Below are positions 53,775 to 56,954 of a DNA stretch of 64,000 bases, one piece after another. The notes below the pieces were generated by a model, which was not told the DNA's origin, searched no databases, and was given only the letters and a program-made list of their open reading frames with translations. The first letter of the stretch is position 1, and each line of letters begins with the position of its first letter. The stretch is from Gammaproteobacteria bacterium (GTDB taxonomy: Bacteria > Pseudomonadota > Gammaproteobacteria > Steroidobacterales > Woeseiaceae), in the NCBI GenBank assembly GCA_013151645.1, contig JAADHU010000080.1:1-64000 (forward strand). Direction: 5' to 3'. The translations under genes were made by a program, and so were the position numbers.

Positions 53775-54764
53775 ATGCATTGGATGTCACCCATCAAACT
53801 TGAAAAGCGATCGAAAAACCGCGGCAGGATGTCACGCTCACAGTGGCTGCGAACCTTTTTTGCCGGGGTCTTATGCCTGGCGGCGGTGGCCGGCGCCCAG
53901 GAAACAACATCTCTGTTGAGCGACGATACAGCCGGGGCTGAGGAAGAATTACGGCGTTACACCGTAGAAATCATCGTCTTTACCTACGCAGACAGCGTGT
54001 CATCGGGCAGCGAAATTTTTGTTGCCGACGCAGTCGATGAACCTGAGCAGACGGCGGAAGCCCTCGTGCAGACAGAAGACGAGGCGCAATCCACTGTGCC
54101 GCCCGAAGATGCCATCGCTGAGGACCCGGTCGCCGAGTACGGCGATTTTCTGGGCTATCCGGAAGATGAGGAACTTGTCGAACTGATCGCCAGTGACCGC
54201 ATCGACCTGAAGGTATTGCAGCCGGATGAGCTGACGATGACGGATATCCATGAAAAACTGGTTTTGCTCGATGCCTACCGACCCGTCATGTGGGCCGGCT
54301 GGACACAAGCGACACTGACCGAAGAAGAAACGCCGAGTATTCGTCTGCGGCGACTGGGCAACTTGCCACTGAATTTTGAGGGCAGCCTGACCTTGTATCT
54401 CAGCCGATTTCTGCACCTTGTTATCGATATTTCGATGGAGGCACCGCCAGTCGTAGCGGAGCAACCGGGCCCGCCGACACCGGCGTCCGGATTCGACCGG
54501 GGATATATCGATGATTTCGGACGGCCCATTTACACCGACACGATAGTGCCTGCAGTGCATTACCGAATTGTCGAAAACCGAATTATGAAGAATGAGGATA
54601 TTCGCTATTTCGATCACCCGAAATTCGGTGTGCTCGCGAAGATCACGCGTTATGAAGCACCCGCAGAAGGCGAACTAATCGAATTGGAGCCCGGTCAGCT
54701 CGTCCCCGGTCCTGCGCCCGCCGATTCAATTGCGCCGCCCGCCACAAGCAGCCGCGACTTATAG
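53775..54764 (+). CDS. CsiV-like cell-envelope protein
   Basis: A periplasmic protein of the CsiV family, which in Vibrio assists peptidoglycan synthesis by the LpoA/PBP1A system and is often found after mfd. The key segment is RRYTVEIIVFTYADSVSSGSEIF after the signal peptide (FAGVLCLAAVAGAQ), then an acidic linker and a conserved C-terminal domain with FEGSLTLYLSRFLHLVIDI. The length is 329 from ATG 53775; ATG 53784 and ATG 53829 are also possible, and 53829 gives the neatest signal peptide. It follows mfd by 6 bp. Confidence 0.82.
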   Translation: MHWMSPIKLEKRSKNRGRMSRSQWLRTFFAGVLCLAAVAGAQETTSLLSDDTAGAEEELRRYTVEIIVFTYADSVSSGSEIFVADAVDEPEQTAEALVQTEDEAQSTVPPEDAIAEDPVAEYGDFLGYPEDEELVELIASDRIDLKVLQPDELTMTDIHEKLVLLDAYRPVMWAGWTQATLTEEETPSIRLRRLGNLPLNFEGSLTLYLSRFLHLVIDISMEAPPVVAEQPGPPTPASGFDRGYIDDFGRPIYTDTIVPAVHYRIVENRIMKNEDIRYFDHPKFGVLAKITRYEAPAEGELIELEPGQLVPGPAPADSIAPPATSSRDL

Positions 54765-55649
54765 AACCCGGCGCAGAAACTCGTCGGCATCCACGCCACC
54801 CTTGCCCGCCTGAAGCATCGCGACCTTGAAGGAAACAGTGACGTACCTGGACGTCCGCGAGCGTGGATGATGCAAGCCAAGCTCCCGCACCGCCACTCCA
54901 ATCCGCTTCGCGAACTCCCGCACCTTCGCCTCATCGGAGGCATGCGATAAAACGACGAGCCTGTCTCCGTATTCACTGTTAACCAGCGCAGCGACATCGC
55001 TGGCGCGTCGCAGGCAACGGCGAATCGCCTGGGCGGCTCGCCGCAGACAGGAATCGGCCGCATGGCGACCGAAGACGTGCAGATAGTCATCGAAATCATC
55101 CAGTGAAAAGGCCACCAGCGCCAGGGTCGTTTTTTCGCGCACGGCCACCGAAAAATCGTGGGCAAGCACGTCATTGAAGGCCACTGTATTCAGGAGCCCG
55201 GTGACGGGATCGTCACGGGACAGGTCGCGAATTCGTTGCTTGGCCTTGAGTAACGCCTGGCGGGCCTCCTGGTCACCCAGGGATGCGCCGTGGCCACTGG
55301 CTATCCGCCAGTAGACCGCATAAAACTGGCCCCTGTCGGCGCGGCCGTCTGTCTTGTCAGCCAGTGGCATAAGCGATAACAAATACTCCTTGCCACGCAG
55401 TTCCACAGAGATAGACGATTCCCGCCCGGCGCGAATGGTTTCGCTGACTTCCAGTGCCAATTCCCGACCGGCCAACGCTTCGACAACGTCGGCAAGCGGC
55501 TGCCCGACCGAACCCGGATCGCCCGCAATCGCCGCAAACGCGGCATTGCCAAGCACCACCGGCCAGTCCGGGCTGTCAATACGCGCCACCAGCAGCGGCT
55601 CCGCCGAACCGGCAACCAGTTTTTCGAGAATGTCCCGCCGCAACTTCAT
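54759..55649 (-). CDS. PAS plus degenerate GGDEF-like regulatory protein
   Basis: A cytosolic protein of 296 residues from ATG 55649. The N-terminal 110 residues look like a PAS fold (PLLVARIDSPDWPVVLGNAAFAAIAG). A coiled-coil linker (ARQALLKAKQRIRDLSRDD) leads to a GGDEF-like fold (DPVTGLLNTVAFND, then LDDFDDYLHVFGRHAADSCLR). The catalytic GG(D/E)EF position reads NSEYGD, and the conserved ND pair is changed, so cyclic-di-GMP synthesis is unlikely. It may be a sensor or receptor. It converges with the csiV-like gene, overlapping by 6 bp. An upstream GTG start at 55691 is possible. Confidence 0.72.
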   Translation of the reverse strand: MKLRRDILEKLVAGSAEPLLVARIDSPDWPVVLGNAAFAAIAGDPGSVGQPLADVVEALAGRELALEVSETIRAGRESSISVELRGKEYLLSLMPLADKTDGRADRGQFYAVYWRIASGHGASLGDQEARQALLKAKQRIRDLSRDDPVTGLLNTVAFNDVLAHDFSVAVREKTTLALVAFSLDDFDDYLHVFGRHAADSCLRRAAQAIRRCLRRASDVAALVNSEYGDRLVVLSHASDEAKVREFAKRIGVAVRELGLHHPRSRTSRYVTVSFKVAMLQAGKGGVDADEFLRRVL

Positions 55650-55740
55650 CGCCAAAATACTCGTGCATCGCGCAAATAAATGCCATGCCACAGTTCACGA
55701 CTACAACCCAATGGCCCAATTAATTGGCGACCACAAGCAA

Positions 55741-55854
55741 GGAGATGCGTGGTGAGGTTTATCTCTGAGACCGTGCCCCGCAGGGATGCGGGGCCCGAGC
55801 TTACAGGGACGTACTTGCAGCGTGTCTCAGAGACAAACCTCACCACGTATCTCC
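55741..55854. repeat. Long inverted repeat with inner hairpin (cruciform-forming element)
   Basis: Outer arms of 31 bp, 55741-55771 (GGAGATGCGTGGTGAGGTTT on) and 55824-55854, are reverse complements with only two mismatches. The 52-bp centre holds a perfect 8-bp hairpin GCCCCGCA / TGCGGGGC (55775-55794) and the segment CCGAGCTTACAGGGACGTAC. The element lies in the non-coding spacer between the PAS gene and nagZ, with no frame and no direct duplication visible. It looks like a dispersed intergenic element. Confidence 0.85.
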
Positions 55855-55907
55855 GTAATAATTGCGACGCCCCCGGCCCCACGCCCTGAACAGGCACACC
55901 CAGCCAC

Positions 55908-56954
55908 TCAGGCATCCAACTCCAGAACAGGCCGATCAGACCAGTGAGCCAGTTGCTCCGCAGCCGTCAGCCACGCATCACTCGCGAGCAGAGACTCGCG
56001 CAACAGCGCGCCTGTACCGTGCAGGCGCGCAAGACGCACCAGAGAGGTCGGTTTTGAATAGTCCCGCAATGACGCCACCGTCGCATTCGCCGCGCGCCGA
56101 TCATTGCAAACCAGCACCATGTCGCAACCGGCAGCGAGGGCCAGGGCCGCTCTCTTGGGCACGGACCCGTAGGTGGCAGCGGCCTCCATGCTAAGGTCAT
56201 CGCAAAATACGGCACCATCGAAACCCAGTTGTGAGCGCAGCTGATTGCCAATCCAATAGGGGGAGAAACCGGCGGGCAGCGAATCCGTTTCCGAAAAGAC
56301 AATATGGGCCATCATGACGGCTCCAATTGACCTCTGTCGTATCAGAATTTCGTAAGGCTGCATATCATCCAGAACATCGCCGAACTCGCGTCGATCGACA
56401 GGCAGGCGTTTATGGGAATCAGCGACAACGGCACCGTGACCTGGAAAATGTTTTGCGACGGCGACCATGCCTGCATCGCGCATGCCGTGCGAGAGCGCGC
56501 CGGCGAGTTCGGCGACGACGGCGGGCTTTCTATGGAATGCGCGGTCTCCGATGACCTCGCTCACACCCCAATCGAGATCCACACAGGGAGCGAACGAGAG
56601 ATCGATGCCCATAGCCCGTAGTTCAGCGCCAATCATCCAGCCGGCCGTTCGCGCGAGATCAATGGCGGCCACAGGATCGGTGTCATAGTGATGACCGAGC
56701 TGGCGCATTGGCGGAATGGCGGTAAAGCGATCACGAAAGCGTTGCACTCTACCGCCCTCGTGATCGACGGCGATGAGCAGTGGTGGACTGCGCAGGGTGC
56801 GGATTTCAGCGACCAGATCGGCGAGTTGCGTGGGTGATTCGTAATTGCGGCTAAAGAGAATAATGCCACCAACTGCGGGTTCACACAGCAAGTCGCGATC
56901 CGCAGGACTTAAGCTTAAGCCCTCGACATCCAGCATGACGGGTCCCAGTGACAT
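55908..56954 (-). CDS. nagZ: Beta-N-acetylhexosaminidase NagZ
   Basis: Cytosolic GH3 enzyme that removes GlcNAc from anhydro-muropeptides in peptidoglycan recycling. The 348-residue protein has the GH3 pattern LLIAVDHEGGRVQRF, the catalytic-loop KHFPGHGAVVADSHKRLP and GAVFCDDLSME with the Asp nucleophile. It follows rlmD by 80 bp and ends the lepB-to-nagZ operon. Linking it to AmpC induction would require an ampG/ampR context not seen here. Confidence 0.96.
   Translation of the reverse strand: MSLGPVMLDVEGLSLSPADRDLLCEPAVGGIILFSRNYESPTQLADLVAEIRTLRSPPLLIAVDHEGGRVQRFRDRFTAIPPMRQLGHHYDTDPVAAIDLARTAGWMIGAELRAMGIDLSFAPCVDLDWGVSEVIGDRAFHRKPAVVAELAGALSHGMRDAGMVAVAKHFPGHGAVVADSHKRLPVDRREFGDVLDDMQPYEILIRQRSIGAVMMAHIVFSETDSLPAGFSPYWIGNQLRSQLGFDGAVFCDDLSMEAAATYGSVPKRAALALAAGCDMVLVCNDRRAANATVASLRDYSKPTSLVRLARLHGTGALLRESLLASDAWLTAAEQLAHWSDRPVLELDA

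Follow-up and report, generated by a model that had tools for sequence, protein, structure and literature searches.

Our analysis has shown that the long inverted repeat at positions 55741-55854 of the window (the whole stretch of 64,000 nucleotides analysed) is one copy of a dispersed family of mobile hairpins, which includes the YPAL/RU-2 elements and is spread across the Gammaproteobacteria. Patterns of mismatch in the arms give good support to a constraint on the fold of the plus strand. We also propose, as a finely balanced reading that leans slightly towards doubt, that plus-strand RNA of the element would be a bivalent CsrA/Rsm-binding module carried from site to site by a mobile element.

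The repeat has two arms of 31 nt (55741-55771 and 55824-55854) that are 94% complementary, carry two mismatches and are spaced 52 nt apart. Folded as RNA, the plus strand reaches -79.3 kcal/mol (z -11.8), which none of 200 shuffled sequences equalled, and the minus strand reaches -76.0 kcal/mol (z -11.4). The near-perfect arms described in the initial annotation of this DNA are thus borne out, with a fold z of about -12. The core of the window copy is a three-way junction made up of hairpin A (55775-55794, RNA fold), with the loop motif CAGGGATG and GGA at 55784-55786, and hairpin B (55799-55821), with TACAGGGACGTA and GGA at 55807-55809. The initial annotation had seen the first of these as an inner 8-bp hairpin, but it overlooked the second. 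The element also exceeds its arms: a covariance model (R1), built from 14 copies in the window's own genome including the window copy itself, matches 55730-55868 on the plus strand over its whole length (model positions 1-139 of 139, 149.2 bits). R1 found no second copy within the 64-kb window at E<=1. As annotated, the spacer is non-coding and follows nagZ. Both neighbours are open reading frames on the minus strand, namely a nagZ-like gene for a family-3 glycosyl hydrolase (55908-56954; PF00933, 260.6 bits) and a GGDEF gene (54759-55691; PF00990, 67.4 bits) that starts beyond the left arm. From the 3' end of the nagZ-like gene (55908) it is 40 nt to the R1 match and 54 nt to the right arm, and the plus strand of the element is antisense to both genes.

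The genome from which the window comes (3.96 Mb, 83 contigs) gave 26 matches, which reduce to about 20 places after removal of arm self-matches and pairing by eye of halves at contig ends (L012 with L006, L018 with L011, L003 with L024); these places include an internally deleted copy, L023, and C64, which was found by the model only. Our alignment (A2) holds 14 of the roughly 20 places and omits the contig-end copies L003, L006, L011, L012, L018, L020 and L024, the deleted L023 and the weak C64. The arms of the 14 complete copies have a mean pairwise identity of 0.65, compared with 0.94 for the core. Within copies, the arms pair in 98.0% of cells versus 89.2% after shuffling. Covariation in the long stem is also evident, as two-sided changes occur at 18 of 49 model pairs versus 8.8 in shuffled alignments, and none of 500 shuffles reached 18, with the caveat that the structure was derived from the same 14-copy alignment. 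L023 (1501-1541) has intact arms and a shorter core, as though a deletion had joined two CAGGGA repeats.

Outside this genome, R1 matches were obtained in 9 of 40 genomes of relatives including our own (8 of 39 others) and, across the class, in at least 26 of 184 genomes including our own (at least 25 of 183 others), with 17 candidates scored per genome. The core pattern was found in at least 120 stretches of the genome collection; the 80 that bear titles all come from Gammaproteobacteria or unspecified Proteobacteria, going by the class to which we take each genus to belong. Copy numbers can be high, with 100 R1 matches in genome G110, 34 in G115, at least 148 in Xanthomonas LMG 31884 and at least 102 in Methylotuvimicrobium buryatense 5G; in each of the last two genomes 150 candidates were scored. 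Xanthomonas LMG 31884 has an array (L292, 7632-8993) of seven copies that alternate in orientation and recur about every 408 bp, resembling a giant BIME. In blastn searches, which diverged copies would escape, a Yersinia similis copy used as query was found in 5 of 5426 E. coli genomes, with 71% of the query covered, and in 26 plasmid records, none of which covered 80% of it; the window copy had no match among phages and plasmids and a Stenotrophomonas copy had none among plasmids. Two stretches of viral contigs bear the core pattern.

Judged by its sequence, the window element is distantly related to the YPAL/RU-2 elements and belongs to their kind, a kinship that the initial annotation had missed. 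This assignment is based on the RU-2 sequence printed in Table 1b of PMC2759123, which contains CTCGAGCCTACATGGATGTATTTACGGCG preceded by hairpin A and hence has the same core, and on R1 matches to copies in Yersinia similis, Samsonia and Pectobacterium (45.5-57.7 bits). These Yersinia palindromic sequences, 167-168 bp long, are presented in PMC2229807 as mobile, intergenic elements with internal inverted repeats; Yersinia and Erwinia carotovora are the only hosts listed in one table of that paper. Target-site duplications of 3-26 bp and a raised level of the upstream transcript are further traits of YPAL/RU-2. The window copy differs from these elements in its arms and ends, and its matched unit is shorter (139 bp). 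The Rfam family RF02770 (Ysr224) scores above its gathering threshold at elements of Yersinia similis, Samsonia and Pectobacterium that R1 also matches, and it models the opposite (minus) strand to the core; the window copy scores only 19.4 bits against a gathering threshold of 70. According to one survey (PMC9029176), Ysr224 ranks with the sRNAs that are most prevalent in bacterial genomes. Outside Yersinia, loci annotated as Ysr224 may be copies of a mobile repeat, for which the annotated strand could be the wrong one.

Other families of repeats were also compared. ERIC/IRU sequences are likewise dispersed intergenic palindromes, and the string GAGCTTACA is common to both by eye; membership in ERIC was rejected, as R1 gave no match at E<=1 in one E. 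coli ERIC copy (L027). Set against the familiar features of REP sequences, the element is similar to REP/BIME in its alternating minus/plus arrays at gene ends in Xanthomonas, but it is much longer, has another core and has no linked Y1 transposase in 21 loci. The earlier view that the repeat belongs neither with ordinary terminators nor with REP sequences has held up.

Mobility is seen at the window site itself. In G001, the sole genome of the same genus among the relatives, nagZ and GGDEF align on both sides, and 3 bases stand where the window has 192, with no obvious remnant of the element. Filled and empty sites in close relatives are a trait of YPAL/RU-2, and the alignment suggests that the element most likely entered the nagZ/GGDEF spacer recently, clean loss in G001 being the alternative; recent origin, one of three explanations offered in the initial annotation, is thus in play. 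Three further sites are polymorphic between the window's genome (G000) and G001: a copy at G000 C28:144073 is absent in G001, and two G001 copies are absent in G000. At the G001 C1 site (L322 2940-3230 versus L222 2890-3020), G000 by look retains the apparent right end of the element, probably as a deletion remnant, and at the G001 C128 site it perhaps retains part of the left end. Since apparent element ends are left at these places, the two G001 copies missing from G000 may be losses.

Ends such as a MITE would have were found in another genome. In G008 the hairpin lies inside units of about 226 bp (212-227 bp when another lineage is included) with the TIR CACTGCTGTCCC, allowing up to two mismatches. 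Both TIRs are present in 14 units, 13 from G008 and one (L088) from the other lineage. The flanking nonamers of these units are identical in six cases and agree at 8 of 9 positions in five, at 7 in two and at 5 in one; a 9-bp TSD at 8 or 9 of 9 positions is thus present in 11 of 14 units versus 6% for shuffled partners. No exact CACTGCTGTCCC was found in G000, so the ends of its element differ from those in G008, and the window site has no clear direct repeat, the longest being 6 bases. A transposase presumably moves the element. The Y1 transposase (PF01797) was rejected as partner: its genes occur in 10 of 12 genomes, yet the core pattern was in none of the 21 loci surrounding them, one of which (L263) has a short look-alike string that is not the core. 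PF13808, the ISAs1-type transposase, which had been a guess at the partner, was rejected as well, with none in 8 genomes.

The core can also change direction relative to the ends. In a subset of 30 copies from G000, G001 and G008, core and ends were opposed in 5 of 29 that could be classified (2 of 6 in G001, 3 of 10 in G008, 0 of 13 in G000), and one more was ambiguous. At an orthologous site (G001 C60/G000 C58) the ends run in the same direction and the core is reversed, by eye. These reversals indicate that the arms recombine, which can keep them alike, and exchange between arms, as the initial annotation had suggested, remains in play. At an orthologous G000/G001 site (L220 9640-9960/L323 2680-3020) it is the element as a whole that points one way in one genome and the other way in the other, within an outer dyad (GGGGTCGAAC/GTTCGACCCC). 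In the class-wide instances L080, L107 and L115 a hairpin with a reversed loop (CATCCMTG) replaces hairpin A, as if the sub-hairpin had flipped alone.

Mismatches in the arms were used to ask which strand is constrained. Clear arms (arm score of at least 14) were present in 98 of 143 distinct instances, a mixture of own-family loci and class-wide core-pattern loci of which 40 of the latter are untitled, and in these G.U outnumbers A.C by 100 to 11 and G.A plus G.G outnumber C.T plus C.C by 44 to 7. The ratio of G.U to A.C is 68 to 2 in 62 copies of G222 (Xanthomonas), 36 to 8 in G110, 22 to 1 in G115 and 16 to 2 in 14 copies of the own genome. These counts share ancestry and are not independent, a problem lessened by a sign test over 52 groups of core-pattern loci (some of them single untitled loci), in which 32 lean towards G.U and 6 towards A.C, with 14 ties. 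Private mismatches, seen only once, gave G.U to A.C ratios of 13:2, 9:5 and 5:0 in direct pair counts, and 8:2, 11:4 and 5:0 at a stricter cut. In G115 purine-purine mismatches are not above pyrimidine-pyrimidine ones (3 versus 4). A cruder cluster analysis, which we judged to be blurred by merged subfamilies, gave 11 G.U versus 11 A.C private and 57 versus 76 shared mismatches in G222, and 5 versus 3 private and 10 versus 10 shared in G110. Unpaired sites in G222 show 11 changes of C>T and none of G>A in raw, unnormalised counts, and part of the G.U excess may hence come from mutation bias. Arm exchange and cruciforms are blind to strand and symmetric mismatches would be expected from them; the asymmetry observed thus points to the plus-strand fold as the constrained one, a conclusion that the sequences support well. 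Selection on structure, also raised in the initial annotation, is in play given this strand bias. Of the two forms envisaged there, the RNA hairpin has a stable fold; we do not favour a DNA cruciform as the target of selection, since it would use both strands equally.

Paired GGA loops, which had likewise gone unrecognised, suggest what the plus strand might do. On this strand the two hairpins each have a CANGGAYG loop, the CsrA/Rsm motif. In hairpin A, CANGGANG is found in 86 of the 98 clear-armed copies versus 0.5% of shuffled sequences, and these 86 copies have 51 distinct stems; GGA lies within the loop or no more than 2 nt from it in 94 of 98. Spacing from GGA to GGA is 20-21 nt in 83 of the 86 copies and 20 nt in the window copy. 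The loop of hairpin B is part of the search pattern and is not independent evidence of loop conservation; in its stem, one pair covaries across 130 copies (TA 115, CG 14, CA 1, TG 0). Both loops of the window copy (AGGGAT and AGGGAC) fit CANGGANG; set against the AYGGAY loops of the Rfam family TwoAYGGAY, they hold G where Y is called for and where other copies have T or C. Spacing rules exist for CsrA bridging two sites, and details of the CsrA/Rsm consensus are reportedly to be found in Schubert 2007 and Dubey 2005. According to PMC6849547, CANGGANG is the Rsm motif, and PMC4333381 describes CsrA sites as GGA hairpins that are generally paired and proposes TwoAYGGAY as CsrA-binding.

The structure of TwoAYGGAY (Rfam RF01731) resembles that of the element, as it has a long outer stem, a junction and two hairpins with AYGGAY loops, and it bears the clan label CL00106, as does CsrC. 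The accounts of it that we consulted do not describe it as mobile. Its model matched two copies over its full length (positions 1-168) on the plus strand, one from Marinobacter (L082, 28.3 bits) and one from G110 (L190, 39.6 bits); the gathering threshold is 43, and no copy exceeded it in the scans run. At a relaxed threshold about 23 other copies of some 25 scanned were unmatched, and the window copy gave no match at E<=5. CsrA itself is near-universal in the genomes tested and does not discriminate those with the element from the others: by hand tally, 31 of 34 genomes with the element and 35 of 46 without it have a strong match (E<1e-15), and CsrA presence was rejected as a predictor of the element on this ground. 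G212 has elements and no CsrA match. The window's genome has only a weak one (C5:119261-119446), which may be due to an assembly gap or to a divergent CsrA, whereas G001 of the same genus has a strong one. Searches of the open-licence literature in PubMed Central turned up neither an account of the wider family nor one that connects CsrA with YPAL.

Placement of the copies counts against a plus-strand RNA. Near gene ends the plus strand is mostly antisense to the preceding gene in three of four genomes, with antisense to sense ratios of 36:9 in G222, 31:1 in G110, 8:3 in G000 and 8:11 in G115. Genes were called with a crude, home-made codon-model caller, and these counts omit copies without a gene end within 250 bp (36 of 81 in G222, 7 of 39 in G110, 7 of 26 in G115, 2 of 13 in G000). 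Of the 80 copies in G222 for which both neighbours were called, none occupies a divergent spacer (one more could not be assigned), and Xanthomonas arrays often alternate minus and plus between convergent genes. In G110 (L180-L199), 33 of 39 copies are in a -E- context, in which the minus strand is mRNA sense, and the plus (core) strand is on the C-rich strand in 38 of 39 fetched copies by hand count. The called genes in these G110 stretches are strongly co-oriented (246 of 289 on the G-rich strand), and gene direction explains the strand skew at least as well as replication. A general replication-strand bias was rejected, as it is weak or absent elsewhere: 17:9 in G115 (hand count), 12:9 in G000 and, among the copies listed and with the origin assumed at base 1, 64:40 in G222 and 14:16 in G228.

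These observations have to be weighed against other explanations. Chance or unique debris, which the initial annotation would have accepted for a single copy unconserved in relatives, is negligible in view of about 20 copies in this genome and a multi-copy, widespread family. A much more serious contender, although we think it unlikely, is that the element is a YPAL-type MITE that acts, if at all, through its minus strand, being co-transcribed after stop codons so that the stem protects or ends the mRNA, with the GGA loops as a founder relic. The placement in G110 and G222 just described, with the minus strand as mRNA sense after stop codons and divergent spacers avoided, favours this explanation, as do the strand modelled by Ysr224, the stable minus-strand fold and the insertion and transcript data for YPAL reviewed in PMC2229807. 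However, it leaves unexplained the plus-strand wobble bias and the constant loops and GGA spacing over 51 stems, and G115 breaks its orientation rule.

It is improbable that the plus strand is constrained as single-stranded DNA, as the hairpin substrate of an IS200/REP-type transposase that would also give a strand bias. The strand-specific constraint and the position of G110 copies on the C-rich strand agree with such a substrate, but Y1 genes are unlinked to the core in the 21 loci around them, the TIRs and 9-bp TSDs of the G008 units speak for transposition of double-stranded DNA, and the replication bias is weak or absent in the other genomes. We consider it slightly less probable again that the repeat is a DNA palindrome without a selected product, kept perfect only by template switching or arm conversion. 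Reversed cores show that exchange between arms takes place; nevertheless, such exchange is strand-blind, so that equal numbers of G.U and A.C would be expected in place of 100 and 11, and it would not spare loops, yet the loop of hairpin A is conserved.

We therefore return to the CsrA/Rsm reading as our working proposal. Plus-strand RNA would fold into a long stem with a three-way junction at its top, where the ANGGAY loops of two hairpins are each closed by a C-G pair, making it a candidate bivalent site for dimeric CsrA/RsmA/RsmE. The element would then spread ready-made predicted CsrA/Rsm sites, with a putative role as a sponge or as a site acting on read-through or antisense RNA at gene ends. 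Its arms would need only to pair and could drift fast, pairing being kept by selection on the plus-strand fold together with arm-arm exchange. In alternating arrays a transcript would meet a minus copy and then a plus copy. Plus RNA would thus be a product of read-through or of antisense transcription, and that of the window copy would run antisense to nagZ. The dependence on read-through or antisense transcription is the main reason why our confidence in the mechanism is no higher. A broader form of the proposal, which we regard as doubtful though not far-fetched, is that TwoAYGGAY-type predicted CsrA/Rsm modules are transposable, with sites seeded at up to at least 100 gene ends per genome that rewire or titrate Csr/Rsm, an invertible core that switches the site on or off for each transcript, and fast-drifting arms.

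In conclusion, this study links the mobile palindromes known as YPAL/RU-2, the Ysr224 family of sRNAs and the TwoAYGGAY-type structure, which are kept apart in the literature examined, and it gives YPAL-like elements a testable candidate protein partner. If CsrA/Rsm does bind, mobile elements would supply new post-transcriptional sites across a whole bacterial class.
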